Source: a virus. Taken from it: a stretch of DNA of 48,559 bases. Position numbers and translations under genes: made by a program. This document shows positions 3,436 to 39,100 of the stretch, one piece after another; position 1 is the stretch's first letter, and each line of letters begins with the position of its first letter. The stretch covers positions 1 to 48,559 of the IMG/VR virus record IMGVR_UViG_3300021142_000047. One strand, 5' to 3'. The notes under the pieces are model-generated. The model did not search any database and was not told the DNA's origin. It worked only from the letters and a program-made list of their open reading frames with translations.

Positions 3436-3795
3436 ATGGAAAAAGAATTGTTAGGAAACATCATCCAAATACAAGGACAACTAAAAATCCTTCACTGGCA
3501 AACCGAATCATTTGCTGAACACATGGCATTTGATACAATCTTAGATGACTTATATGATAGATTCGACCGTCTTGTTGAGGTTTATAGCGGTAAATACCAA
3601 AGACTTAAATTTGGTGGAGTTAAACAAATTTCATATGCAGATTATGATAATCTTAAAATTGATGCTTTTATTGAAGGCATGGACGATTTTATGACATCCG
3701 CATTTATGGCTGAACAAGATAGCGAATTAGCAAATATTCGTGATGAAATTAGAGCTGATTTGATGAAGCTTAAATATTTATTGACATTAAAGTAA
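3436..3795 (+). CDS. Ferritin-like helical phage protein (DUF5856 type)
   Basis: 119 aa. The stretch IQGQLKILHWQTESFAEHMA resembles the first helix of Dps/ferritin-like proteins and of a small phage family annotated as DUF5856, in which a His-Trp pair starts the helical bundle. LDDLYDRFDRLVEVYSGKYQRL would be the second helix. Metal binding or oxidase activity is not shown by the sequence. The stop codon overlaps the ATG of the ATP-grasp gene by one base, which suggests co-translation. Confidence 0.6.
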   Translation: MEKELLGNIIQIQGQLKILHWQTESFAEHMAFDTILDDLYDRFDRLVEVYSGKYQRLKFGGVKQISYADYDNLKIDAFIEGMDDFMTSAFMAEQDSELANIRDEIRADLMKLKYLLTLK

Positions 3796-4850
3796 TGATG
3801 TCTATTCAAGATTCATACGATAAATTTATTAAAGCAAGTATAAACGGATCACCATATTTACAAAAGGTGGTCCTTTTTTCAACTATGCCTATGGAGGAAA
3901 AGCAGGAAGTTCAATCAGAGATAAGTAAATTATTTTTGTATTGTGATGATCCTGATGCTTTTCTAGCTGACCATTTATTACAAACTAACCCAATTCTATT
4001 ATGGGATAGATCATCCCTATTAGAAAAGTACGGCGTAAGTGAAGCTATTTCTAAAATACAATTAAACACTTCAGTTTATAATTCACCACATGGCATAATT
4101 GTAAGTAAAATTGATACTTTAAAGATATTAAAAAAGATTGGGTTTTCTTATATACCAGAAACATATTTTACAAAAGAAGAAGCTTATAAAAAATTAAAGT
4201 TTCCTGTTATTGCTAAAGCATCAAATACATTTCAATCTAGAGGTGTTGAAAAAGTAAAGAATAAGAAAACACTTAAATCATTAGGTGATGGCTTTACAAT
4301 CTTTCAAGAACAAATTGAAATTGATGAAGAATATCGTATAGTTTTCTTTTGTGGGAGAGAAGGCTTAACAATGCTAGCCGTTTTTCGCAGAGACCCTGAA
4401 AATGATAAAGCAAAAGAATTAAGAATGAATGAGGCTGAAGGCGATGGCATGAAATTTAAAACATTAAAGAATCGCGAGAAATCTGATTTTTCATGGACTC
4501 AAATAGACCCTAGAAATAATGATAAACTTAACATTCAAGAATGTTATAACATTGCTAACACAATCTTTGCAATAAATCCTACATTAAAAGTTTCGGGATT
4601 AGATATAGCAGTTGATAAAAACGGTAAACATTGGTTTATTGAATCTAACTCAACGCCTGGTCTATTTTCTAATATGCTTCCTTTAATCTATAAATTTATT
4701 TATGAAGATTCTATAGCTAATTTATCACCATACGGAATTAAAAAAATACAGGAGCTTTCTTTTTATTTTGCATCTTTAACTATGAAAGATGAACCTAATT
4801 TTAAAATTGAAGATCCTAACATTTTATACAATCTTACAGGATATATATAA
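3795..4850 (+). CDS. ATP-grasp family protein
   Basis: 351 aa. The middle of the protein carries an ATP-grasp pattern: FPVIAKAS (lysine contacting ATP), then SRGVEKV, FQEQIEIDEEYRIVFF, and near the C-terminus SGLDIAVDKNGKHWFIESN, where D and the final E/N would bind magnesium. Such enzymes (RimK-like, D-Ala-D-Ala ligase-like) join a carboxylate to an amine or thiol through an acyl phosphate. The substrate is unknown. ATG codons at 3795 and 3798 are both possible starts; the first overlaps the upstream stop. The gene sits in a four-gene run with no obvious partner peptide. Confidence 0.7.
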   Translation: MMSIQDSYDKFIKASINGSPYLQKVVLFSTMPMEEKQEVQSEISKLFLYCDDPDAFLADHLLQTNPILLWDRSSLLEKYGVSEAISKIQLNTSVYNSPHGIIVSKIDTLKILKKIGFSYIPETYFTKEEAYKKLKFPVIAKASNTFQSRGVEKVKNKKTLKSLGDGFTIFQEQIEIDEEYRIVFFCGREGLTMLAVFRRDPENDKAKELRMNEAEGDGMKFKTLKNREKSDFSWTQIDPRNNDKLNIQECYNIANTIFAINPTLKVSGLDIAVDKNGKHWFIESNSTPGLFSNMLPLIYKFIYEDSIANLSPYGIKKIQELSFYFASLTMKDEPNFKIEDPNILYNLTGYI

Positions 4851-4868
4851 TAAAAATAATAAAAAAAA

Positions 4869-5270
4869 ATGGAAAAATACGTAAAAACTTTTGAGAGCTT
4901 TGTTTCCTATTTAAATGAAGCTAAAAACTTTGGTGACATTACTGCTGCAATAGGTGGTGGAAATGACAGAGTTTTTAAAGAATTCTTTAAAAACGCAAAA
5001 AAAGGTGATACTTTTGAGTATGCTCCTAATGGTGTAGAGCTTGATTTTATCGCAAATAAATCTCAAGTTTCTCAAGGCGAAATTGATCTTGAAGTTAAAC
5101 AAACATCTCGTGATGCTAAACCTGTTAAATGTACAGTAGTTGGTAAAAGAGAAGGTGTTGTTTTAAACGGAGGTGGAATGGAATATGAAGCTGAAGAAAC
5201 TGACGCAGTTTACTTTATCATGGGTACTGATAAAAACACTATTTATGTTTTAACAGATACTTTCGAATAA
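4869..5270 (+). CDS. Hypothetical protein with T4-like capsid-targeting N-terminus
   Basis: 133 aa. The N-terminus (KYVKTFESFVSYLNEAK) resembles the capsid-targeting peptide of T4 internal proteins (MKTYQEFIAE type), which directs proteins into the prohead core and is removed by the gp21 protease. The remainder is mixed charged residues and beta-rich sequence without a family I know. It could be a protein packaged in the head; this is inference from a short motif. The gene is last in its group and is followed by a strong terminator. Confidence 0.65.
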   Translation: MEKYVKTFESFVSYLNEAKNFGDITAAIGGGNDRVFKEFFKNAKKGDTFEYAPNGVELDFIANKSQVSQGEIDLEVKQTSRDAKPVKCTVVGKREGVVLNGGGMEYEAEETDAVYFIMGTDKNTIYVLTDTFE

Positions 5271-5292
5271 AACATAAAACTTATTTTTATGA

Positions 5293-5317
5293 GGGTTGCT
5301 TAGGCAACCCTTTTTTT
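5293..5317 (+). terminator. Rho-independent terminator
   Basis: GGGTTGC, loop TTAG, GCAACCC, followed by seven T. It closes the 3031-5270 gene group and also separates it from the opposing endonuclease gene. Confidence 0.9.
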
Positions 5318-5336
5318 GTTAATAACAATCAAGAAT

Positions 5337-6224
5337 TTATAACACTATGAATAAAAAATTTAAACCCGCAGACTTACACGCAGCTTCTTTTAAAAGATTT
5401 TTTTCTTTGTGTTTTTCAAATGTGTATTTGCTTTTAACTTCAATTATAGTGTTTGTACTTTTTATGTAAAAATCAGGATAATAAGATCGTTTTACATTAT
5501 TATGTAAGTAATGTATTTTGCCTATACAATTATGAATATCTTTAACTGAAATTACAATATCGTTTTCATCATATGTTTTTAAAAGATCAGCTAACACAAT
5601 AGGCTCGTATCCTTGCAATTTAACAATTTTTCCACTAGGCAAAATAAATTCTTTATAAGCATAGGAATTTTTTAACTGATCATTTGCATATTCAATATCT
5701 GACCATTTTATAATCATTGAATTTCTACGTTTTTCTGTTGTAGTTTTTCTATTCTGTGATACTTTTTGTTTAGCGCTAGCTTGTTTTTTATATTCAGTAT
5801 CTTCCCATATCTTAAGCATAGCTTCTTTTTTTGCCGTTCTCACATAACTTCTATTTGCAATATCTTTATTTATTTTTTTCTGATTTTCTTTAAACTTATC
5901 ATCACTATATTTTTCTTTTATTTTCTTTGAAACTTTATCTTTGTAATTGATATCCGACCATCTTTTAATTAAATCACTGGAATGTTTTTCTTTAATCTCT
6001 TTTCTGTTTTGGTATTCTTTATGAAAAGCAGAAATTTTATCGTTACGTTCTTTTGATTTTGCTGCATTTTGAATACTTAATTTAACTTTTTCTTTATATG
6101 ATGGATCGCTCCATTTATATTTAGATGTGCAACTTCTTGAACACGTTTTAGTATTTTTATGTTTTGTATTAAATGGTTTATTACAACAAACACATTCTTT
6201 TTCATATATCATATAAGTCTTCAT
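5337..6224 (-). CDS. Free-standing homing endonuclease, PD-(D/E)XK type
   Basis: 295 aa, the only clear complete minus-strand gene in the window. The N-terminus has a zinc ribbon (C11-x2-C14 and C28-x3-C32). The centre has repeated KWSD/RWSD..YK.K units like the DNA-binding repeats associated with homing endonucleases. The C-terminus carries the nuclease pattern: YYPDFYI (P250, D251) then TIIEVKSKYTF (E262, K264), that is PD-x10-ExK. Such enzymes cut phage genomes that lack the gene and spread it by repair. It lies between the gp39 group and gp52, comparable to mob/seg genes in T4. A decayed relative sits at 835-1116, so the family has moved in this genome more than once. Confidence 0.8.
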   Translation of the reverse strand: MKTYMIYEKECVCCNKPFNTKHKNTKTCSRSCTSKYKWSDPSYKEKVKLSIQNAAKSKERNDKISAFHKEYQNRKEIKEKHSSDLIKRWSDINYKDKVSKKIKEKYSDDKFKENQKKINKDIANRSYVRTAKKEAMLKIWEDTEYKKQASAKQKVSQNRKTTTEKRRNSMIIKWSDIEYANDQLKNSYAYKEFILPSGKIVKLQGYEPIVLADLLKTYDENDIVISVKDIHNCIGKIHYLHNNVKRSYYPDFYIKSTNTIIEVKSKYTFEKHKEKNLLKEAACKSAGLNFLFIVL

Positions 6225-6262
6225 TTTTATAAACTGTTATATAAAACTATTTATCATGTATG

Positions 6263-6270
6263 TATATAAA
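6263..6270 (+). promoter_or_regulatory. TATATAAA element before gp52
   Basis: TATATAAA 32 bases upstream of the gp52 start, between the divergent endonuclease gene and gp52. Confidence 0.4.
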
Positions 6271-6302
6271 TTATAAAGGTTAAACTTATAAAAACTAAAA
6301 AT

Positions 6303-7715
6303 TTGAAACATAAAACATATCCTTTAAACATTTCTCGACAAATTGATACTAACTTCAGAAACTACGCTTTATATGTTTTGGAGAATCGTGGGATACCGAA
6401 TTTTTATGATGCGTTAACAAATGTTCAACGTTTTATTATGATAAATGCTCCAGCTAATTATAATAAAACAATGTCACTTGTTGGTTCTTGTATGAGCGAC
6501 GGTTATCACCACGGTGATGCTTCTTTATCAAAAGCAATTAATCGACTTGCTCGACCTTTTGGTAACAGTGAACAGCTTTTAAATGGTGATGGATTTTTTG
6601 GATCACCGGTAACACAAGAAGCTGCTGCTCCTCGTTACACTTCTATTCGGATTAATCCTACAATTGCGGATATGATTCGTAAAAACAATTTTTTAAATAC
6701 ACGTGATGAAGAAGGATCTTATGATCCGTTATGGGTTGATTTACCTATAGGATTAACAAACACAATCGTTGGTATTGCTGTAGGATATAAATCAACTGTA
6801 TTACCCAGAAATTTGTCTGATGTACAAAAGTTCCTAAATGGCGAAATAACTGAACTTATACCTTACTTTAAAGGTTCTAAATGCAAGGTTTCCCGATATA
6901 AAGGAATGAATAAATCTTGGCTTATTGAAGGTAGACTTGAAATTAATCAAAAAACAAAAACTATAAGAATAGTTGAACTTCCACCATTAATGAAATATGG
7001 GTCCTTCTTGAAAAAACTGGACAGCATTATATCAGGATATAATGTTCGTTTAGTTAATAATTCATTGAATGAAATTGACTTGACTGTTACTTTAACAGGT
7101 TCAAAGGAGGACTGGGAATCTTTTGTAATTGAAATCGACCGAGCAACAAAAATGTTGGTGACAGAAACACCAATTTTTGTTAAAGATGGTTTGGTTATTG
7201 AATATGAAAGAATTGAAGATTACATTAATGACTTCCGTTATCGTTTAGGTGATTTGAGAGTTCGTAAGTTAACATACTATATGAATGTAACTGATGAAGA
7301 ACTCTTATTCCAAAAATTTAAAGAAAAGTATTTGCTTTTTATGCTTGAAACAAAAGGCAAGAAAATGAGAACTGATGAAGAAATTAATTCTTTCTTAACA
7401 GAATTAACAGTTGGCTACCCTAATGTTCGTCGTCGTCTTGATGCAATTTATTTAAAGTCTCTATCTGATGATGAATTACAGAGAACACGTGAAAAGATTA
7501 AAAAATTAACAGTTGAATTAGCAGCTCAGAAAAAAGAATTAGCTGTCGCTGTTAAATCTTTTGAAAAAATGACAGATACATCTTTAACAAGAGCAACAAC
7601 AAATCGTGCTAATTCAACAACCAACTTATTTGCTGAAGAAGAAGAGATTGACGGTATTGAAGTGTTTGGCTCTTCTGTTTTTGAAGAAGACGATGATGAA
7701 GAAGATGAAAACTAA
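6303..7715 (+). CDS. 52: Type II DNA topoisomerase medium subunit (T4 gp52)
   Basis: 470 aa. The DNA-cleaving subunit of the phage topoisomerase, homologous to GyrA/ParC and partner of gp39. Landmarks are RNYALYVLENRGIPNFYDAL near residue 20, VQRFIM, DGYHHGDASL near 66-75 and the active-site region AAAPRYTSIR with the catalytic tyrosine at about residue 112. A coiled coil precedes a very acidic tail (EEDDDEEDEN). The start appears to be TTG at 6303, because no ATG lies in frame closer to the conserved N-terminus; the leader just before it is A-rich. It is separated from gp39 by about 3.3 kb of small genes and a homing endonuclease. Confidence 0.92.
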   Translation: MKHKTYPLNISRQIDTNFRNYALYVLENRGIPNFYDALTNVQRFIMINAPANYNKTMSLVGSCMSDGYHHGDASLSKAINRLARPFGNSEQLLNGDGFFGSPVTQEAAAPRYTSIRINPTIADMIRKNNFLNTRDEEGSYDPLWVDLPIGLTNTIVGIAVGYKSTVLPRNLSDVQKFLNGEITELIPYFKGSKCKVSRYKGMNKSWLIEGRLEINQKTKTIRIVELPPLMKYGSFLKKLDSIISGYNVRLVNNSLNEIDLTVTLTGSKEDWESFVIEIDRATKMLVTETPIFVKDGLVIEYERIEDYINDFRYRLGDLRVRKLTYYMNVTDEELLFQKFKEKYLLFMLETKGKKMRTDEEINSFLTELTVGYPNVRRRLDAIYLKSLSDDELQRTREKIKKLTVELAAQKKELAVAVKSFEKMTDTSLTRATTNRANSTTNLFAEEEEIDGIEVFGSSVFEEDDDEEDEN

Positions 7716-8534: not shown

Positions 8535-8578
8535 CTTGGTGTTTGATTTATAAAATAAAACATACATCAAACGCCAAG
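8535..8578 (+). promoter_or_regulatory. Hairpin with promoter-like loop before GIY-YIG remnant
   Basis: CTTGGTGTTTGAT (8535-8547) pairs with ATCAAACGCCAAG (8566-8578) over 13 pairs with one G-U. The 18-base loop carries TATAAAATAAAA. The first ATG of the remnant lies 8 bases beyond the stem. A transcript starting from the loop promoter would lack the left arm, while read-through from gp45 would form the hairpin. The same design appears at 12818-12864. Confidence 0.65.
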
Positions 8579-8586
8579 AAAACAAC

Positions 8587-8828
8587 ATGATTATCATTAC
8601 ATATATAAAACTACGCGTAACATAACAAATATGTATTACATCGGTTTGTATTCAACGTCAAATTTAGATGATGGCTATATGGGTTCAGGAAAACGTATAA
8701 GATATTCTTTAAATAAGTATGGGATAGATAATCCTGAAGAAAAAATTAATAAAACAAAATCTACATTAAAAGGCTGGGAAACGCCAAGACAAAAAAAATT
8801 GGAAATGGATAAAAAAAATGATATATGA
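8587..8828 (+). pseudogene. GIY-YIG homing endonuclease remnant
   Basis: Reading in the frame of 8631 from 8595 gives HYIYKTTRNITNMYYIGLYS, a good GIY-YIG signature (I-Y then YIG), continuing STSNLDDGYMGSGKRIRYSL as in SegB-like phage nucleases. The natural ATG at 8587 (MIIITYIK) is one base out of frame with it, so the N-terminus is either frameshifted or starts at ATG 8631, losing the first motif strand. The ORF stops after about 75 residues, well short of a full enzyme. Its TGA overlaps the ATG of the polymerase half as ATGA. The nuclease is very likely dead; the stub may remain because it couples translation to the polymerase ORF. Confidence 0.7.
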
Positions 8829-10003
8829 AACACTGCAAGATAAACCCCGAAACCGCAAGTAAGGAAGAAATCACTGCAGAAATTAATCGCTTAACTCTTT
8901 TAATGAATCTTAAGAAAAACGAAGAACAAGCAATTAAGATTTTCATTAACTCTGTTTATGGTGCAACTGCATCGCCTTACTTTGTTGGCTATAATGTTCG
9001 TGTTGCTGAAGCAATTACATTACAAGGCCAAGAAATGATTAAGTTCACCCAAAAAATCATTAACCGTTACTTCATGGAATTTTGGCATCGAGATAAAGAA
9101 GTTCATCAAAAACTTGGACTCTCTCGAGTTGACCGTATAGGCCGTGAAGTAACAGTTTACGGAGATACGGATTCATGTTATATGACATTCCAAGATATTG
9201 TAAATGGTTGTGATTGGGCAGGTGATCCAAGAGAATTAATCTTAGGTATTTACCGTTTAAGATTAAAAGAATATTTATCTAAAAACTTTGAAACATTTGC
9301 TGCTAATGGTGGTACTGAAAATATCCAAGATTTAGAAATGGAAACAATTTCATGGTCAGGTATCTTTTTAAAGAAAAAGAAATATGTACTTGATATGTGT
9401 TGGAAAAGTGGAAAAGGTAACGGATATTATTATGAACCGCAAACTAAACTTAAAGCAACCGGTGTTGAAATTGCACAATCTTCTACTCCAGCATTTGCTC
9501 GTAAAAAACTTCTTGACTTCTTAAAAATATTATTTAAGGAAAAGAAAACTTTAAACATGAGATCGTTTGCTGATTTGCTGAAAAAAGAAAAAGCTGCATT
9601 TAATCTTGATCATATTGAAAACATTTCAATGTCATCTGGTATTAGTGATTATGAAAAAGGAATTGCTGAAGATCGTAAAAAATTAATACTTAATGACCAC
9701 TGTCCAATGCATGTTCGTGCTGCTGGGTATCATAACTATTTAATGAATAATAGTAAGTGGAAAGAAAAGTATCAGTTAATTAAAAGTGGTGATAAAGTTC
9801 GTTATTATTATGCAAAAGTTGAAGGAGAAGGTGAAAATGTATTTGCATATCTCCCAGGTAACTATCCTATTGAACTTGCACCAGCTGTTGACTATGATAT
9901 GCAATTTGCGAAATGTATGATTGACCCACTGAACCGATTCATTGTTGCGACAGGTCTATCTCCAATATCACCAGAATTAATTGTAAGAACACAACTATTT
10001 TAA
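8825..10003 (+). CDS. 43: Family B DNA polymerase, C-terminal half (gp43B)
   Basis: 392 aa. Only the second half of a T4-type replicative polymerase: motif B (KIFINSVYGA, residues 38-47) and motif C (YGDTDSCYM, 112-120) are present, followed by the thumb region. The exonuclease domain and motif A are absent and are not found elsewhere in this window; directly upstream is a GIY-YIG remnant and then the clamp gene. Gene 43 is known to be split by homing endonucleases in some T4 relatives. No intein C-terminal motif (HN before Ser/Thr/Cys) occurs near its N-terminus, so the two halves would have to associate non-covalently. The C-terminal end (RTQLF) may bind the clamp, by analogy to T4. Confidence 0.88.
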   Translation: MKHCKINPETASKEEITAEINRLTLLMNLKKNEEQAIKIFINSVYGATASPYFVGYNVRVAEAITLQGQEMIKFTQKIINRYFMEFWHRDKEVHQKLGLSRVDRIGREVTVYGDTDSCYMTFQDIVNGCDWAGDPRELILGIYRLRLKEYLSKNFETFAANGGTENIQDLEMETISWSGIFLKKKKYVLDMCWKSGKGNGYYYEPQTKLKATGVEIAQSSTPAFARKKLLDFLKILFKEKKTLNMRSFADLLKKEKAAFNLDHIENISMSSGISDYEKGIAEDRKKLILNDHCPMHVRAAGYHNYLMNNSKWKEKYQLIKSGDKVRYYYAKVEGEGENVFAYLPGNYPIELAPAVDYDMQFAKCMIDPLNRFIVATGLSPISPELIVRTQLF

Positions 10004-10178: not shown

Positions 10179-10469
10179 ATGGCAAAACAATTTTCATTTA
10201 ATGAACTTGATGCGCAATTATCCAAAGTAAATCCGAAAGGCTCAATTATCACACAGAACGCATTTTCTAAAATTGACGAGTATATTGATACAGGTAATTA
10301 CTTGTTAAATGCTCAACTTACAGGATCTCTATTTGGCGGAATTCCGAACTCTCGTTCAGTATGTCTTGCCGGAGAATCAGGTTGTTTACAAAAAAACGAG
10401 AAAGTTAATGTATACATATTTAAAACAAAAACTTTCGATGTCAGAAAAACAATTACACAAGACAAATAG
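10179..10469 (+). CDS. uvsX: UvsX recombinase part 1: N-extein plus split intein 1 N-half
   Basis: 96 aa. Residues 1-68 are the N-terminus of UvsX, the RecA-like strand-exchange protein of T4-type phages, ending within the Walker A motif at LAGESG. From Cys69 the sequence changes to CLQKNEKVNVYIFKTKTF, an intein block A (nucleophilic Cys at position 1), and stops after only 28 intein residues. The missing TGKT of Walker A opens the extein of the next uvsX ORF. Protein splicing in trans is therefore needed to make an ATP-binding site. The 28-residue N-half is far shorter than the ~100 residues of canonical split inteins and resembles atypical ones such as AceL-TerL. Confidence 0.9.
   Translation: MAKQFSFNELDAQLSKVNPKGSIITQNAFSKIDEYIDTGNYLLNAQLTGSLFGGIPNSRSVCLAGESGCLQKNEKVNVYIFKTKTFDVRKTITQDK
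10383..10466 (+). other. UvsX split intein 1, N-half (28 aa)
   Basis: Begins at Cys codon 10383-10385 immediately after the GESG codons of Walker A. Contains block A only; block B is in the partner half at 11585-12085. Confidence 0.85.
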
Positions 10470-10481
10470 CCTAAGTATTTT

Positions 10482-10540
10482 TAGGGATAATATGTTATCA
10501 ATAGAAGAATTTATTAAAGCTTCTATTGATAACGTCCCTA
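10482..10540 (+). promoter_or_regulatory. Hairpin over the start of the intein-1 homing endonuclease
   Basis: A perfect 14-bp inverted repeat, GTTATCAATAGAAG (10494-10507) with CTTCTATTGATAAC (10520-10533), is extended by TAGGGA (10482-10487) with TCCCTA (10535-10540). The ATG at 10492-10494 lies in the internal loop and stem. A smaller alternative stem, CCTAA (10470-10474) with TTAGG (10481-10485), competes for the outer pairing. It is likely to limit translation of the nuclease. Confidence 0.7.
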
Positions 10541-11622
10541 ATTTTAATCCAGATGTAAATTTATATGATATTAAAAAAATGTATCATAAATATTTAACGA
10601 ATTACGATTCTTTACAAATTTTATCAAATAGGAATTTGAAATTATCAAGTATTGGTTTTTTTTCTAAAACAAATCTTAATATTGAATATTGGTTAGATAG
10701 AGGTTGGTGTATTAATGAAGCAATAAATAAGATTAAAAAAAGACAATCTACTTGTAATAAAGATATTGCTAAAAAAATACAAAATACGCTAAAAAATAAA
10801 TCTAACGATGAAATATTAGAAATAAATAAGAAAAAAGCTAGATCATCTGATCCTTTATTTATATCAAAAAAATATGGCTTAACTTTAGACGAAGCAAAAA
10901 AAAAGTTATTTGATAGAGCATCTAAAGGCGGTAAAACAAAATCAGAACTATATAAAAAATTAAATAAGCCCTTTGGTAACAGGGAACTTTCGTATTATTT
11001 AGAAAAAGGACTTTCTTTAGAAGAAGCAAAAGAATCATTAAGTAATAGACAAAATACATGTTCACTAGAGAGTTTTATTAAAAGATATGGTCCAGATAAA
11101 GGTTTACTTAAATATAATAATAGAATTAAAAAATTTAAAGATAACTGGAATAATAAAACAACAAAAGAACGTAACGATATAACAAAAAAACGTTTATCTA
11201 AGAAGTTTTTTTATTCTAATGAATCATATATATTTTTTAATAAACTTATAACAGAATTAAATTTAGAATTAGATTATAAATTTGGTCCTTCTGAATATTA
11301 CATATATGATAACGCAACAAAACGTATATATTTTTATGATTTTTGCATACCATCACTGAAAATAATTATTGAATATAATGGCAGCTACTGGCACGCAAAT
11401 GAATTAAAATCATCGGATAGTTGGCCTAATAAATTATACACATATAGTGATTCATTAGCAAAAGATAATTTGAAGAAAGACATAGCAGAACGTAATAATT
11501 TTACATATATTGTAATATGGGATTATGAATCAAACCTTGATAAAACAAAAAAAGAATTAGTGTATATAATTAAAAACAAAATAAATGATAGAATTACAAA
11601 CACAAACACCAGCAATGGTTAG
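10492..11622 (+). CDS. Vsr-like homing endonuclease inside the uvsX intein-1 break
   Basis: 376 aa from ATG 10492; the frame is open further upstream, but that would overlap uvsX part 1. The middle has repeated modules (YGLTLDEAKKKL, KGLSLEEAKESLSNRQNTCS, FIKRYGPDKG) typical of phage homing endonucleases. The C-terminus has the Vsr-like (EDxHD) nuclease pattern: FYDFCIPSLK, IIIEYNGSYWH, then DNLKKDIAERNNF and YIVIWDYE. Nucleases of this family were described in fractured genes lying between halves of split inteins, and this one occupies exactly that place. It would cut uninterrupted uvsX alleles. Its end overlaps the next uvsX ORF (start 11585 or 11615). Confidence 0.85.
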   Translation: MLSIEEFIKASIDNVPNFNPDVNLYDIKKMYHKYLTNYDSLQILSNRNLKLSSIGFFSKTNLNIEYWLDRGWCINEAINKIKKRQSTCNKDIAKKIQNTLKNKSNDEILEINKKKARSSDPLFISKKYGLTLDEAKKKLFDRASKGGKTKSELYKKLNKPFGNRELSYYLEKGLSLEEAKESLSNRQNTCSLESFIKRYGPDKGLLKYNNRIKKFKDNWNNKTTKERNDITKKRLSKKFFYSNESYIFFNKLITELNLELDYKFGPSEYYIYDNATKRIYFYDFCIPSLKIIIEYNGSYWHANELKSSDSWPNKLYTYSDSLAKDNLKKDIAERNNFTYIVIWDYESNLDKTKKELVYIIKNKINDRITNTNTSNG

Positions 11623-12085
11623 TTTAGATGATATTGTTAATGAATTAACATTTTATTATCCTAACGAAAATATTTCATCCCTATGTGACGAAGAAATATT
11701 ATTAAAATTTAATAATCATGTATTAAATAATCTAATTCAAATAGAAGCTGGTGATCTTGTTAAGTTAGAAAACTCACACATTTTAATAAGTTCACCTGAT
11801 GGGTTTCAATCCATTGGTGATTTTTATATTAAATCACCTAGAGACATTTTTCATATATCATTATCAAACGGTATGCAATGCAAATCATCAGCGGATCATT
11901 TATATGAAACTGAAAATGGTTGGGTTCTAGCAAAAGATATAACAAAAAAACATAACATCTTAACAATTAATGGTTTTTTTAAAGTATCTAACATTGATAA
12001 ATTAAATCCTGAAGAAGTATATGATTGGGAAGTTTTACATGAAAACCACAGATATTGGGCAGGTGATGGTTTTTCATCGCACAAC
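11585..12085 (+). other. UvsX split intein 1, C-half
   Basis: 167 aa (157 if the start is 11615). Contains block B and the C-terminal blocks, ending His-Asn before a Thr +1 residue (codon 12086-12088). Confidence 0.85.
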
Positions 12086-12808
12086 ACTGGTAAAACATTC
12101 CTTACATTAAACATTTGTCGCGAAGCACAAAAGATGGGTTATCAAATAATCTATTGTGATTCTGAGGCTGCGGTTGATGAAGAGATCATGAGAAACTTCG
12201 GACTTGACCCTGATCTTGTTCGTTACCAACCTGTAAGTACTTCACTTGAAGTTCGACACTTTGTATCAAACTTAACTGACATCTTACGTAAGCAAAAAGA
12301 AAAAGGAGTTGAACTTCCAAAATTAATGTTGGTTCTTGACTCACTTGGTAACTTGGCTACAACAAAAGAAAGAGCAGATGCTGCTAGTGGTTCTGAGAAA
12401 AAGGATATGACAAAGCAACAAGATTTAAGATCATTATTCCGTGTAATTACTACGGATCTTGCTGAGTTTAAAATTCCTTTTATCTTTACGAACCATACTT
12501 ATGCTTGTGCTTTAGGTGATACACCAGTTTTAATGGGAGATGGTACTTTTAAGGATTTACAGCAAATTAAAATTAATGATGTTGTAATGACATTAGAAGG
12601 TGAACAACCTGTAACAGATACTTTTAAGTATGATAAGACTAGAACAATTAAATTAACATTTGAAGATGGTGTTGTAATTGAATGTTCACCCTTACACAAA
12701 TTTTTAATTGATGAAGATTATACATTAGAATCATCATGGATAACTGCTGATGAGTTGCAAGAAGGATCTGAAGTAATAACACATAGTGAAATACCCGTCT
12801 TGCAGTAA
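11585..12808 (+). CDS. uvsX: UvsX recombinase part 2: intein 1 C-half, middle extein, intein 2 N-half
   Basis: 407 aa from ATG 11585 (preceded by an A-rich leader; ATG 11615 is an alternative). Residues 1-167 are the C-half of intein 1: block B lies at CKSSADHLYETENGWV and the splice end is GFSSHN. Extein residues 168-307 begin TGKTF, completing Walker A, and include the Walker B-like KLMLVLDSLGNL and end FTNHTYA. Cys308 starts intein 2 (CALGDTPVLMGDGTF, block B IECSPLHKFL), which stops after 100 residues. The ORF is thus the middle of a three-piece recombinase and must splice at both ends. Confidence 0.92.
   Translation: MIELQTQTPAMVSLDDIVNELTFYYPNENISSLCDEEILLKFNNHVLNNLIQIEAGDLVKLENSHILISSPDGFQSIGDFYIKSPRDIFHISLSNGMQCKSSADHLYETENGWVLAKDITKKHNILTINGFFKVSNIDKLNPEEVYDWEVLHENHRYWAGDGFSSHNTGKTFLTLNICREAQKMGYQIIYCDSEAAVDEEIMRNFGLDPDLVRYQPVSTSLEVRHFVSNLTDILRKQKEKGVELPKLMLVLDSLGNLATTKERADAASGSEKKDMTKQQDLRSLFRVITTDLAEFKIPFIFTNHTYACALGDTPVLMGDGTFKDLQQIKINDVVMTLEGEQPVTDTFKYDKTRTIKLTFEDGVVIECSPLHKFLIDEDYTLESSWITADELQEGSEVITHSEIPVLQ
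12506..12805 (+). other. UvsX split intein 2, N-half (100 aa)
   Basis: From the Cys codon at 12506 to the stop. Block A (CALGDTPV) and block B (CSPLHKFL) are both present, as in canonical split inteins. Confidence 0.9.
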
Positions 12809-12817
12809 TGTATGATT

Positions 12818-12864
12818 TGTGAAGTTTCATGGAGATATAAAATAAAACAACATGAAACTTCACA
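12818..12864 (+). promoter_or_regulatory. Hairpin with promoter-like loop that hides a start codon
   Basis: TGTGAAGTTTCATG (12818-12831) is perfectly complementary to CATGAAACTTCACA (12851-12864). The 19-base loop contains TATAAAATAAAAC, the promoter-like element of this phage. The ATG of the 12852 ORF lies inside the right arm. A transcript reading through from uvsX would bury the ATG; one started from the loop would free it. Confidence 0.75.
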
Positions 12865-13145
12865 TAACAGAATCTAATTGGAAAATTATTGTTATAAACA
12901 ATATTGGCACATGTAATATGGGAAACGTTTATAAGGAATTGTATAAAAGAAGTGATTTGCATAAATTTATAATTGATGATACTTCCTTCTGCATACAAGA
13001 CACTAATATTAAAACCAGGTTAATTTATATAGTCAACGGCATAACAGAAATGAACATATGTAACGAATGTAACGAACTAATAAATGATGGCGCTAAAGAT
13101 ACATTAACAATTAAAGAATTAAAAAAACAAAATAAACGAATATGA
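12852..13145 (+). CDS. Homing endonuclease stub in the uvsX intein-2 break
   Basis: 97 aa. The stretch RLIYIVNGITEMNICNECNE resembles the N-terminal zinc-ribbon region that opens many phage Vsr-like homing endonucleases (an IY...NI...C..C pattern). No nuclease domain follows. It occupies the same place as the complete nuclease in the intein-1 break, so I read it as a truncated endonuclease. Its TGA overlaps the ATG of uvsX part 3 as ATGA, so ribosomes finishing the stub could restart on the C-intein ORF. The family link rests on a short motif and is moderate. Confidence 0.6.
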   Translation: MKLHITESNWKIIVINNIGTCNMGNVYKELYKRSDLHKFIIDDTSFCIQDTNIKTRLIYIVNGITEMNICNECNELINDGAKDTLTIKELKKQNKRI

Positions 13146-13255
13146 AAAAACTCAAATTACTTAAAAAAGAACAAGGCGAATTAAATACCGTCTATGACAT
13201 TGAAGTAAAAGATGCACATCATTACATATCTAAGGACGGTGTAATCATGCACAAC
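13142..13255 (+). other. UvsX split intein 2, C-half (38 aa)
   Basis: Starts at its own ATG, ends His-Asn, followed by Ser codon 13256-13258 as the +1 extein residue. Confidence 0.9.
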
Positions 13256-13882
13256 TCTATTGGATCATTCATACCAGGGCAAACTATATCTGGTGGAGGT
13301 GGAGCAATCTACAATGCTTCTGTTATCTTACAATTATCAAAAGCTGGGTTAAAAGAAGGTGAAACAGGATCTAACGGATTCGCAATGAAAACAGGAATCA
13401 TTGTTACATCTAAACCTGCAAAGAATCGTTTTGCTCGTCCGCTTCCTATTAAATTCCACATCAGTTTCTACCGCGGTATGAACCGTTACGTAGGTCTTGA
13501 GGAATTCATTAATTGGGAATCTTGTGGAATTCAAAGAGGTAAAATCCTAACAGAAAAAGAATTCTTAAAAGCCTACAAAGAAGGAACAGAAGGTTACGAA
13601 AAAGGAATCAAAACAAGATTCACAACTGTTGATGATAACGGTGTTGAACAAGTTTTATACTTTGAAGATAAACCAACTGCAAGATCTATTGCAGTTCGTC
13701 ATTTAGGCGCTAACGTTCCGCCTTCTGAATTGTTTACTAAGAAAGTTATTACTCAAGAAGTTTTAACTTATCTTGATGAAAACGTAATTAAACCAATGTT
13801 TATGTTACCTAACATCGGGTCACTTGATGATCTTAGTGAGATCGCAGATGGATTAGAATTAGAAATTGAAAATGAGGATTAA
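13142..13882 (+). CDS. uvsX: UvsX recombinase part 3: intein 2 C-half plus C-extein
   Basis: 246 aa. Residues 1-38 are a compact intein C-half (TVYDIEVKDAHHYISKDG, ending VIMHN), the same length class as gp41-1 and DnaE C-inteins. Ser39 is the +1 residue. Residues 39-246 are the C-terminal part of UvsX, beginning SIGSFIPGQTISGGGG, which joins NHTYA of part 2 at the DNA-binding loop region of RecA-fold proteins, and ending in an acidic tail. The three exteins (68, 140 and 208 aa) add up to 416 aa, near the 391 aa of T4 UvsX, so nothing seems lost. Confidence 0.92.
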   Translation: MKKLKLLKKEQGELNTVYDIEVKDAHHYISKDGVIMHNSIGSFIPGQTISGGGGAIYNASVILQLSKAGLKEGETGSNGFAMKTGIIVTSKPAKNRFARPLPIKFHISFYRGMNRYVGLEEFINWESCGIQRGKILTEKEFLKAYKEGTEGYEKGIKTRFTTVDDNGVEQVLYFEDKPTARSIAVRHLGANVPPSELFTKKVITQEVLTYLDENVIKPMFMLPNIGSLDDLSEIADGLELEIENED

Positions 13883-35453: not shown

Positions 35454-36122
35454 ATGAGAAAACCAACAGAAGAAAGAAAAAGAGAAATGGAGATGCGTGA
35501 AGAGCTAGAGAGACTTATTAGCCAAGACGCAAGTGAAATTAAAAGTCTCGTTTCTCAAGCAGAAAAGATATTACCTGTTAGACCACAAACAGGATTTTTA
35601 AATTATCATGAAGTAAAAGAAGTATCAGATAATAAAGCAACTGATATAGTTGATGCAATTGCTAACTTTTACTTGACAAGCAAAATTATTACAGAAATAC
35701 CTTATGTTAGAGAAAAAAACGGTGTTGATAAAATTACTGTGTCTAACTTATTATTTCAAATGAAAACTGCTGAGCACGCAATTATCAAATTATTAGAAGA
35801 AATTGATAATGGGAATACACACCCAAGAACATTTGAAGTTTTATCATCTTTACAAAGATCTAAAATGGAAATTGTAAAACACCTTGCTCAGTTTATGGTT
35901 ATTATGGAGCAAAACTATAAAAACTTAAAAGAAGATTATCGTATCAAAACAGCAGAATCATCTGAATCGTTAGAAGAAGGTGATGTTACAATTGAAAATG
36001 CTGAATCACAAACACAGTTCCGTGGCACTAAAGGATTAATGGACGTTATTCGTCAAGCAATTCCTGAAACAAAAGCAACTGCTGCATTAAAAGATAACGA
36101 AGAAGATGGCGAGCAGAGGTAA
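35454..36122 (+). CDS. 16: Terminase small subunit (T4 gp16-like)
   Basis: 222 aa. The helical core AEHAIIKLLEEIDNGNTHPR then TFEVLSSLQRSKMEIVKHLA follows the gp16 pattern in which a HPR..EV motif lies between two long helices of the oligomerisation domain. gp16 recognises DNA for packaging and stimulates the gp17 ATPase. The N-terminus is highly charged and the C-terminus is a flexible acidic tail. It overlaps gp17 by 17 bases, the usual gp16-gp17 order. Confidence 0.7.
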   Translation: MRKPTEERKREMEMREELERLISQDASEIKSLVSQAEKILPVRPQTGFLNYHEVKEVSDNKATDIVDAIANFYLTSKIITEIPYVREKNGVDKITVSNLLFQMKTAEHAIIKLLEEIDNGNTHPRTFEVLSSLQRSKMEIVKHLAQFMVIMEQNYKNLKEDYRIKTAESSESLEEGDVTIENAESQTQFRGTKGLMDVIRQAIPETKATAALKDNEEDGEQR

Positions 36123-36603
36123 GATATGGAACAGCAAAAGAATTGCTGATGAAATAGCTAGAATTGATAACGGTTCACCTAACGCAGATTATTCTCCTTT
36201 TTATGATGGAGATACAACTATGAAAGCTGCTGATATTGTTTTTGAATATTCGCAACTTGAAATTGAGGAACTTGCTAGATGTGCAGCTGACGTAGTTTAT
36301 TTTGGTGAAAAATATTGTTTCTCTATGACCGATGAAGGTATTAGACAAATTAAACTACGTCCGTATCAGAAAAAAATGTTAAAGGATTTTCAAGAAAATC
36401 GTTTTAATGTAATGCTAGCATCTCGTCAGATTGGAAAGTGTGCTTTATATGATACAAAAATTGACATAAAAACTCCTACAGGTGATGTTAAACGTATGTC
36501 AGTAGGATCTTTATATTTTTACATGGTCTCCGAAAATCGTAAATTAACTTTTATAGAAAAATTAAAATATACGTTATGGAAACTTTATGATAAATTAAAT
36601 TAA
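36106..36603 (+). CDS. 17: Terminase large subunit part 1: N-extein plus split intein N-half
   Basis: 165 aa. Residues 1-111 are the start of gp17, the packaging motor ATPase, ending inside Walker A at LASRQIGK. Cys112 begins an intein: CALYDTKIDIKTPTGDVKRM (block A), then GSLYFYM and 25 charged residues before a stop. Block B is absent from this half. The ATPase can only be completed by joining with the ORF at 37142, which supplies the Thr after the Walker lysine. The insertion site and the short intein N-half (54 aa) are like those of the AceL-TerL split intein known from metagenomes. Confidence 0.9.
   Translation: MASRGKIWNSKRIADEIARIDNGSPNADYSPFYDGDTTMKAADIVFEYSQLEIEELARCAADVVYFGEKYCFSMTDEGIRQIKLRPYQKKMLKDFQENRFNVMLASRQIGKCALYDTKIDIKTPTGDVKRMSVGSLYFYMVSENRKLTFIEKLKYTLWKLYDKLN
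36439..36600 (+). other. Terminase split intein, N-half (54 aa)
   Basis: From Cys codon 36439-36441 to the stop. Holds block A only. Confidence 0.85.
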
Positions 36604-36618
36604 AGTTTTTGACGAATT

Positions 36619-36686
36619 GCTAACATCTTAATGAATATATAAAATAAACTATTATGGAATGTTTAATATGTAAAAAAGAAGTTAGC
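36619..36686 (+). promoter_or_regulatory. Promoter element within a weak long-loop hairpin
   Basis: GCTAACATCTT (36619-36629) can pair with AAGAAGTTAGC (36676-36686) with one mismatch. The 46-base loop holds TATATAAAATAAA (36636 onward) and the ATG at 36654. It repeats, in weaker form, the design of the hairpins at 8535 and 12818. Confidence 0.4.
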
Positions 36687-37145
36687 GGATCTGGTGTAAA
36701 GTATTGTTCTAATGAATGCAAACAAGAAGGTCTGATTTTAAAAAATAAAAATAAATTTTTAAAATCAGCAGTATCTTTAACAGGTATTGAAAATATTGAT
36801 TATGTAACTTGTAAATGGTGCAATTGTAAAGTAAAGAGAATTTATGGAACTCATATAAAAAATCATCATCCAGATAAAACGATAAATGATTATAAGAAAG
36901 AATTCCCGGATTCTTTAACTTCTTGTATTTCGGACAAAAAAGCAACATCAGTTAATTCAGGAAAGCATATGCAAACGGATGAAATGCGTAAAAAGATGAG
37001 TGATAAAGTTAAAGGAAACAAAAATCCAAATCATAAATCAAAAACAACTGAAAAGGAGAGGAAAGAAAGATCACCATTTTCAGATGAATTTTATAAATCA
37101 AGAGGTTTAGATATTAATAAAAAAATGCATAAATTTTATAAATGA
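36654..37145 (+). CDS. Truncated homing endonuclease in the terminase break
   Basis: 163 aa. The N-terminus has a zinc ribbon (C3-x2-C6, C18-x3-C22), then a second finger CKWCNCKVKRIYGTHIKNHH, then a NUMOD-like motif KMSDKVKGNKNPNHKSKTTE and RKERSPFSDEFYKSRG. This is the DNA-binding front half of large phage Vsr-like homing endonucleases. The EDxHD nuclease half seen at 10492-11622 is missing, so cutting is unlikely. The TGA overlaps the ATG of terminase part 2 as ATGA, so translation of the second half of the terminase may depend on this stub. Confidence 0.75.
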   Translation: MECLICKKEVSGSGVKYCSNECKQEGLILKNKNKFLKSAVSLTGIENIDYVTCKWCNCKVKRIYGTHIKNHHPDKTINDYKKEFPDSLTSCISDKKATSVNSGKHMQTDEMRKKMSDKVKGNKNPNHKSKTTEKERKERSPFSDEFYKSRGLDINKKMHKFYK

Positions 37146-37579
37146 ATAGTTTTTTAAAAATAATAATAATTCACTTAATACAGCTTATTGAAAAATGGGA
37201 GTATCGTAATGAAGTATTAAACCAAGATGATGTTTCAAAAAAAATAATGGAAACATTTAAATTAGATGGTTATGAAACATTGACTGATAGCGGTTGGCAG
37301 CCTATAAGTCATATACATAAAACACAGCCATTTAAAAAATGGAAAATAAAAACAAATAGTGGCAAATTTTTAGAAGGCGCTGATAATCATATTTTGTTTA
37401 ACGAAAATATGGAAGAAGTTTTTATTAAAGATTTAAAAATAGGCGATAGCATACAAACAAAAGATGGGATTGAAAAAATAAATGAAGTTATTAAAGATAA
37501 AGTTTCAGTTTCAATGTTTGACACAACTATCAATAGTAAAGATCATAGATATTATACAAATGACATATTGAGTCATAAT
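37142..37579 (+). other. Terminase split intein, C-half
   Basis: Ends His-Asn before the Thr codon 37580-37582. Contains block B and the C-terminal blocks. Confidence 0.88.
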
Positions 37580-39100
37580 ACGGTAACATCTTCAATTTTC
37601 ATTGCTTGGTATTTATGTTTCCATTATGAAAGAAATGTAATGGTTGTTGCGAATAAATTAGCAACTACAAATGAGATTGTTGATAAAATTAAGATCATCT
37701 TAAAGAACTTACCTTTCTTTATGAAACCTGGTGTTCTATCAGGAGGTGTTACAGGTATGAGATTTGATAACGGTAACCGTCTGTTCTCACAAGCAACAAC
37801 TAAAACAGCGGCTATCGGGTTTACTATTCACCTTTTATTTGCCGATGAGTTTGCCCACATTCATCCAAACTTCTTATTACCATTTTATCGTTCAATTTAT
37901 CCAACGTTATCATCTTCACAAATATCAAGAATCATTATATGTTCTACACCAAACGGTATGAACTTATTTTATGAAATTTATCAGGCTGCAACAGAAGGTA
38001 AAAATGCTTATAATGCAATTAGGGTTGATTGGTGGCAAGTGCCTGGAAGGGACGAAGAATGGAAAAGGCGAGAAATTGCCAACTTAGGAAGCGAGGAATT
38101 ATTTAATCAAGAATACGGAAATCAATTCTTGGCAAGTTCAAGATTATTACTTTCATCAAAAATGTTGGAGTTCTTAAAAAGAACTACACAAAAATATGTA
38201 ATGAAAGAAATGGACGATTTTCTTGATTACCCTGAATTAATAGAAGCAATTAAGTGGCATCCTAAATATGACCCTAATCGTAGAGAAGTTAAAAATGAAA
38301 AAATTGTCTTTGCTGTTGATATTGGTGATGGCGTAGGACGTGATTATTCAGTAATTAACATATTTAGATTAGAAACAAAATCTCCGGTAATGATTCGTAA
38401 AACTAAAGACTGGAGTGATGAAACAGCGTTCTTTAGATTAAAACAAATTGGCTTATTTAGATCAAATGTATTATCGGTTGAGGAAATGTCAAAAGCTTTA
38501 GAAATTCTTGTGTTTAATGTTTATAACCACGAAAATTGTAAAATTGTCATGGAGATTAACTTTAAAGGCAATCTTGTTTTTGAAAGAATGAGCCGTAATG
38601 CTGAATTTTACCCAGAAATATTTTTATACACTAAACACTCAATTAATAATGATCAATTAAAACTTGGTGTAAAAATACAAAAAGATAATAAAGAATCATA
38701 TTCTCGTGAATTAAGAAACTTAATTAATAATCGTAGAGTTGTTATTAATGAAATGACAACTTTTATGGAATTATCATCTTTTGGTATAAATAGTCAAGGA
38801 CGTTACGAAGCTCAATTAGGTAATGACGATACAGCAATGTCTTGTGTAAACCTAGTTACTTATTTTGAGTCAAATGACTTTTATGAAATGGTTGAAGATT
38901 TATATGACTATTCATCCTCAGAAGTTAAGGCTGCTGTTGAAAAGAGAATGTCAATTGGTGATAAAGGTAATGATGATATGATGGACATGTTTAAACTTAT
39001 TGGAGGTATGGGTAATAATGGAGGGTTTAAACCTACAAATAAACCTGCAACAAATAATACAAGCGGGTATTCAAGCAACAATAATATGTTTAAGATGTAA
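37142..39100 (+). CDS. 17: Terminase large subunit part 2: intein C-half plus ATPase/nuclease C-extein
   Basis: 652 aa. Residues 1-146 are the intein C-half: GYETLTDSGWQPISHIHK, block B FLEGADNHILF, DLKIGDSIQTKDG and the splice end TNDILSHN. A start at Met37 would give about 110 aa, near the 104 aa of AceL-TerL. Thr147 is the +1 residue. The extein has Walker B LLFADEFAHI, coupling motif IICSTPNG and the RNase H-like nuclease with FAVDIGDGVGRDYSVI as its first acidic site. Exteins sum to 617 aa, against 610 for T4 gp17. Confidence 0.93.
   Translation: MNSFLKIIIIHLIQLIEKWEYRNEVLNQDDVSKKIMETFKLDGYETLTDSGWQPISHIHKTQPFKKWKIKTNSGKFLEGADNHILFNENMEEVFIKDLKIGDSIQTKDGIEKINEVIKDKVSVSMFDTTINSKDHRYYTNDILSHNTVTSSIFIAWYLCFHYERNVMVVANKLATTNEIVDKIKIILKNLPFFMKPGVLSGGVTGMRFDNGNRLFSQATTKTAAIGFTIHLLFADEFAHIHPNFLLPFYRSIYPTLSSSQISRIIICSTPNGMNLFYEIYQAATEGKNAYNAIRVDWWQVPGRDEEWKRREIANLGSEELFNQEYGNQFLASSRLLLSSKMLEFLKRTTQKYVMKEMDDFLDYPELIEAIKWHPKYDPNRREVKNEKIVFAVDIGDGVGRDYSVINIFRLETKSPVMIRKTKDWSDETAFFRLKQIGLFRSNVLSVEEMSKALEILVFNVYNHENCKIVMEINFKGNLVFERMSRNAEFYPEIFLYTKHSINNDQLKLGVKIQKDNKESYSRELRNLINNRRVVINEMTTFMELSSFGINSQGRYEAQLGNDDTAMSCVNLVTYFESNDFYEMVEDLYDYSSSEVKAAVEKRMSIGDKGNDDMMDMFKLIGGMGNNGGFKPTNKPATNNTSGYSSNNNMFKM

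Follow-up and report, generated by a model that had tools for sequence, protein, structure and literature searches.

In the fractured genes that Dassa and colleagues reportedly described in 2009, a phage-type DNA metabolism gene is broken at a split intein, and a free-standing, often Vsr-like endonuclease gene lies between the halves. Those genes are not known to have more than one break each, whereas the recombinase gene uvsX of IMG/VR virus record IMGVR_UViG_3300021142_000047 (the whole stretch of 48,559 nucleotides (nt), hereafter the window) carries two consecutive breaks with different split types. The first-pass annotation of this DNA, made from the sequence alone, had regarded such a gene as unusual and perhaps undescribed. 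Two consecutive breaks in one gene do appear undescribed: no published gene is known to us whose product is restored by two natural trans-splicings in a row, and a full-text search of the open-licence literature yielded no paper that mentions "split intein" together with "UvsX". Each break alone, however, is of a known kind, and cultured phages also have a broken site A. There are precedents for fractured genes, for Vsr-like endonucleases, for atypical splits and for inteins in UvsX. A split intein lies at both breaks of this conserved enzyme gene, and judged by their sequences the two breaks are adjacent fractured-gene cassettes of the known kind.

Pseudomonas phage PA5oct has a fractured UvsX (gp276, gp275 and gp274), as do ten phage records that are nearly identical to it. 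As at break A of the window, the gene is broken in the Walker A motif (GESG/CLPETAK...), with an N-terminal intein half (IntN) of 17 amino acids (aa), a Vsr-like open reading frame (ORF) between the pieces, and a C-terminal intein half (IntC) homologous at 39% identity. In PA5oct, gp276 ends with GESG followed by CLPETAKVKIRLSKKQS, gp275 is the Vsr-like ORF, and gp274 begins with the homologous IntC, but the gene has this single break and its site B region is intact. UvsX of the cultured Salicola phage SCTP-2 (ORF 204) also has two inteins, the first at the Walker A position that is broken in the window (CLPEDAIVNVRF...HN/SGKS), although both are contiguous and the second lies downstream of site B, at a distance of about 13 residues. 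In Prevotella phage Lak-B1 (MK250020, an unannotated record; L073, positions 3782-6915), a split intein divides uvsX at a point slightly downstream of site B, and the ORF between the halves is endonuclease-like and open under code 15.

Atypical split inteins of the VidaL and AceL-TerL type have an IntN of 15-37 aa and a large IntC (PMC13014065). The IntC at break A is homologous to VidaL, but here the IntN has 28 aa, the IntC has 167 aa with an N-terminal extension, and the gene holds two inteins. The PhoH and nrdA genes of Campylobacter phage IBB_35 were reported to be interrupted by two inteins (PMC3322345), likewise two as in the window; the comparison is by text only, which does not say that two split inteins lie in one gene. 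Three segments have been joined via two orthogonal split inteins by engineered tandem trans-splicing (PMC12707363), a man-made combination, whereas the arrangement in the window is natural.

Organization of the three-piece uvsX

In the window, UvsX is spread over three ORFs at positions 10179-10469, 11585-12808 and 13142-13882, all on the + strand, and the exteins of 68, 140 and 208 aa add up to 416 aa. Extein 1 (10179-10382) ends with GESG, the first half of Walker A, hits the UvsX-like family PHROG 97 with an E value of 2.7e-7, and shows 98.5% aa identity to the unbroken UvsX of the related IMG/VR contig L002. Extein 2 (12086-12505) runs from TGKT to NHTYA (PHROG 97, E 1.4e-24; 95.7% aa identity to L002), and extein 3 (13256-13882, with the 208 residues at 13256-13879 followed by the stop codon) starts with SIGSF (91.8% aa identity to L002). 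A Cys directly follows each N-extein and HN directly precedes each C-extein. These ORFs, extein lengths, coordinates and junction residues had all been given correctly in the first-pass annotation, and the joined exteins align without a gap to the unbroken L002 gene.

Break A lies inside Walker A (GESG/TGKT), where joining the exteins restores GESGTGKT, and break B lies just past the NHTY stretch (NHTYA/SIGSF) in the alignment to E. coli RecA, a position that can be placed at the start of loop L2 by sequence. Compared with known structures, the joined exteins matched RecA and UvsX, including UvsX 9gbg (E 1.9e-45 over residues 22-291), and they contain the RecA core, Walker A included. All three exteins are full length and, by codon comparison, under strong purifying selection, with ratios of nonsynonymous to synonymous substitution rates (dN/dS) of 0.015-0.12 between the window and L002 and 0.05-0.10 between the window and contig L005 (see below). 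The genes of the cluster overlap by 32, 38 and 4 nt and leave a single 43-nt gap, and the overlaps would fit coupled translation.

The two split inteins and their predicted pairing

Intein 1, at break A, is atypically split. Its IntN (IntN1, 28 aa, 10383-10466) is identified by its position, its Cys1, 69% identity to the L005 counterpart with a pN/pS of 0.22, and counterparts in PA5oct and SCTP-2. The IntN at site A has 28 aa in the window, 26 in L005 and 17 in PA5oct, all within the 15-37 aa of atypical splits, and the IntC is correspondingly long. IntC1 (167 aa, 11585-12085) ends with SSHN before Thr at +1; it hits the VidaL intein, the nearest solved relative of intein 1, in PDB with an E value of 6.7e-11, and is 54% identical to that of L005 (dN/dS 0.30). 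The class-1 positions read from the sequence are Cys1, block B SADH (in IntC1), block F YDWEV..HENH and SSHN/T. In LR756500, Walker A of a PhoH-like gene is interrupted by a cassette of the same type (short IntN, VidaL-like IntC and a homologue of the break A endonuclease at 37% identity), so this cassette type occurs at the P-loops of different genes. A lone IntC1 query against viral contigs found nothing, and two-sequence profile searches with IntC1 or with the break A endonuclease matched only the L005 and L006 genomes. An AlphaFold model of the second ORF built from two sequences was too poor (mean predicted local distance difference test (pLDDT) score of 54) and was not used.

Intein 2, at break B, has a canonical split. 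IntN2 (100 aa, 12506-12805) has Cys1 and hits Pfam Intein_splicing with an E value of 4.4e-8 (dN/dS 0.15-0.22), and IntC2 (38 aa, 13142-13255), which ends with MHN before Ser at +1, hits the same family alone with an E value of 0.002 and is 89.5% identical to that of L005. When joined, the two halves gave an E value of 5e-10, and the nearest solved relative is gp41-1. Here, the class-1 positions are Cys1, block B SPLH (in IntN2), block F YDIEV and MHN/S. The intein pieces, too, are under purifying selection (dN/dS or pN/pS 0.06-0.31 in comparisons among the window, L005 and L007).

The earlier proposal that the differing split positions and sequences limit cross-splicing was strengthened by mapping the conserved blocks. 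The skipping pair IntN1 and IntC2 would have no block B and would lack the middle of the Hint fold, and IntC1 and IntN2, which stand in cyclising order on the second ORF, would overlap rather than complement each other. As wrong pairs lack block B or overlap, mis-splicing seems unlikely on geometry alone, and the sequence divergence (21% identity) is a separate factor.

Endonuclease ORFs and hairpins

Features of the window beyond the first-pass annotation are TerL as another fractured gene, the third such break in the window, a hairpin at break B, and two ORFs lying between the uvsX pieces, one for a Vsr-like homing endonuclease and one an HNH-type remnant. A free-standing endonuclease lies between the intein halves at both sites, as an intact ORF in break A and, in break B, as a remnant in the window and a full ORF in L005. 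The break A ORF, HEG-A (10438-11622, with the start at 10438 set by comparison with L005), is a Vsr/EDxHD-like homing endonuclease that hit phrog_22677 with an E value of 3.3e-17 as a longer ORF; its L005 homologue hit NCBIfam vsr with an E value of 1.7e-4, a match far below the curated cut-off. The structural model of HEG-A is of low overall confidence (mean pLDDT 54.8), and use was made of the better-modelled C-terminal domain alone, which matched the EDxHD catalytic domain of I-Bth0305I (Z 9.8) and Vsr (Z 9.5) and so points to a Vsr-like catalytic domain. In break B, the 97-aa HEG-B remnant (12852-13145) is the N-terminal part of a 345-aa HNH-type ORF of L005; its first 82 residues align to L005 HEG-B by tblastn, and the full L005 ORF hits the homing endonuclease family phrog_3339 (E 4.9e-12). 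A free-standing DUF7487 ORF on the minus strand (5337-6224, E 3.9e-27), located between replication genes, is weakly similar to this L005 ORF.

The HEG-B remnant has its start codon within a 14-bp perfect hairpin (12818-12864; minimum free energy -19.1 kcal/mol, z -4.9), with TATAAAATAAA (12836-12846) and GGAGA in the loop and the ATG in the stem. L005 retains this hairpin, and L007 lacks it. TATAAAATAAA occurs five times in the window (7730, 8549, 12836, 14193 and 36638), each time on the + strand and a short way upstream of an ORF, against 0.75 occurrences expected in shuffles, and is possibly a late promoter or an A-rich leader of this phage; TATAAATA alone showed no enrichment. Hairpins and late promoters hold back endonucleases of T4 early and release them late (PMC2988022), and the break B hairpin with TATAAAATAAA bears a suggestive resemblance to such control of homing endonucleases. 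Another hairpin with TATAAAATAAA in its loop (8535-8578, z -5.2) lies upstream of a GIY-YIG endonuclease fragment (8631-8828), and the region is an insertion relative to L002.

Broken and unbroken relatives

The unbroken uvsX of L002 and the joined window exteins have coding sequences of equal length, 1251 nt each, and align without a gap at identities of 91.3% (nt) and 94% (aa). The window exteins are thus parted at codon-exact points, by stretches of 1703 and 750 bp. The DNA flanking uvsX is collinear between the window and L002 (87-90% identity), and most distinct relatives in this clade have an unbroken uvsX. Other uvsX genes with the same two breaks, which had been suggested as a check, were found in a second, diverged lineage: L005, on a 238-kb contig (G001), and L006, on a 49-kb contig identical to L005 over the locus, are broken at the same residues as the window. 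Identities between the window and L005 are 82, 89 and 72% for the exteins, 49% for HEG-A and 54-90% for the intein pieces, and no second uvsX was found on the 238-kb contig. An assembly artefact was judged unlikely, as contigs from two other metagenomes show this arrangement in diverged form.

Some relatives are broken at site B only. L007 and L008 have the split intein there without an endonuclease between the halves, and L042 has a TnpB gene between them. This TnpB-like nuclease ORF (L042:6743-7987; Cas12f1-like_TNB, E 1.9e-21; OrfB_IS605) stands where a homing endonuclease would be expected. In a tree of the exteins, the nearest row to the window was the unbroken L002 (support 100/100), and the aligned protein of L007 was identical to that of the unbroken L009. 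Since each of these broken genes pairs with an unbroken one, the cassettes are gained or lost over short times. L007 and L009 are 98% identical over kilobases, and 6 of their 16 extein differences lie within 25 nt beside site B (P 2.8e-7); the densest block of differences between the window and L002 is also beside site B (8 in 30 nt, P 0.003, uncorrected for block choice). Such clusters are the pattern that co-conversion during homing would leave, and suggest homing at site B. A plasmid collection searched with the third piece gave no match.

Proposed assembly of UvsX and alternative explanations

UvsX of the window is very probably made as three polypeptides and joined to 416 aa by class-1 trans-splicing through two split inteins, in a gene invaded by two endonuclease cassettes. 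Intein-plus-endonuclease cassettes would have invaded uvsX at Walker A and at the start of L2, and each intein would have been split where an endonuclease gene sits, or once sat, between its halves. The overlapping gene cluster would then give three polypeptides, in which IntN1 pairs with IntC1 and IntN2 with IntC2 independently, and class-1 chemistry (Cys1/Thr+1 at A and Cys1/Ser+1 at B) would excise both inteins and ligate the 68, 140 and 208 aa. The twice-spliced protein would have a mass of about 46 kDa and carry the tryptic junction peptides SVCLAGESGTGK and IPFIFTNHTYASIGSFIPGQTISGGGGAIYNASVILQLSK. The break A endonuclease may spread its own cassette by homing; as homing in T4 needs UvsX or RecA (PMC2988022), these parasites would occupy the kind of gene that they need for moving.

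The three-piece UvsX with two split inteins, as first proposed, is the best reading of the empty-site allele, the catalytic residues, the purifying selection, the second lineage and the site A relatives. Several points weigh against it: the support is all at the sequence level, the window is a 48.6-kb fragment and an intact uvsX is possible elsewhere in its genome, the selection ratios are rough because the window and L005 approach saturation at synonymous sites, and the 28-residue IntN1 is too short and was recognised by no profile. It is quite unlikely that the breaks act in addition as a control device, by which UvsX would be active only after two trans-splicings and its third piece would be timed by the break B hairpin and the late-promoter-like element, gating recombination and homing.

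Assembly of the three polypeptides into an active UvsX by non-covalent contacts, with no splicing, is improbable. T4-like phages do provide a precedent for genes in pieces: the endonuclease-split NrdA of phage Aeh1, reported by Friedrich in 2007 (cited in PMC3322345), is said to assemble non-covalently, and these genomes likewise encode their family B polymerase in two genes, where the C-terminal half begins without a visible intein signature. Yet both breaks retain the catalytic residues and Hint regions of their inteins in two lineages, and a P-loop cut into GESG and TGKT could hardly take shape unless covalently joined. As to the polymerase itself, the window holds only the C-terminal half (8825-10003), whereas the relatives L005 and L007 encode the N-terminal half separately, at a distance of about 12-16 kb.

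Decay of the gene, in which uvsX is inactivated by its two breaks and its work falls to another recombinase, from the host or elsewhere, is less probable still. It would agree with HEG-B being a deletion remnant and with the intein-bearing nrdA of some Campylobacter phages, which is thought to degenerate (PMC3653736), but not with three full-length exteins under strong purifying selection. Least probable of all is joining at the RNA level, by group I introns or ribosome bypass, or recoding of stops in place of protein splicing: group I introns with similar endonucleases occur in T4-like phages (PMC2988022, PMC3943268), but intein motifs abut both junctions of uvsX. The window gave no Rfam match at the gathering threshold, and recoded stops were rejected, with TAA, TAG and TGA each ending conserved genes nearby.

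If double trans-splicing does rebuild UvsX, the locus would be a natural precedent for the three-piece assembly by two orthogonal split inteins that engineers have built by hand. It would also suggest a rule for orthogonality, in which one N-proximal and one canonical split are combined so that wrong halves make no complete intein. The alleles can be arranged in a series, unbroken (L002 and L009), split without an endonuclease (L007), with an endonuclease remnant (the window), with a full endonuclease (L005), with a single break (PA5oct) and with contiguous inteins (SCTP-2), which may represent steps toward gene fracture that are testable in culturable phages.

Other fractured genes

The third fractured gene of the window, TerL (36106-39100), has an N-extein ending with QIGK (36438), an N-intein at 36439-36600, an HNH/NUMOD3-like ORF at 36654-37145, and a C-intein at 37142-37579 that ends with SHN and is followed by TVTSS. 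The 238-kb contig of the double-break relative L005 (here L069 and L070) carries a fractured nrdA with a canonical split, a gp46-like gene whose Walker A is interrupted by an intein with a short IntN and with a Vsr-like ORF in between, and a contiguous intein near 76 kb.
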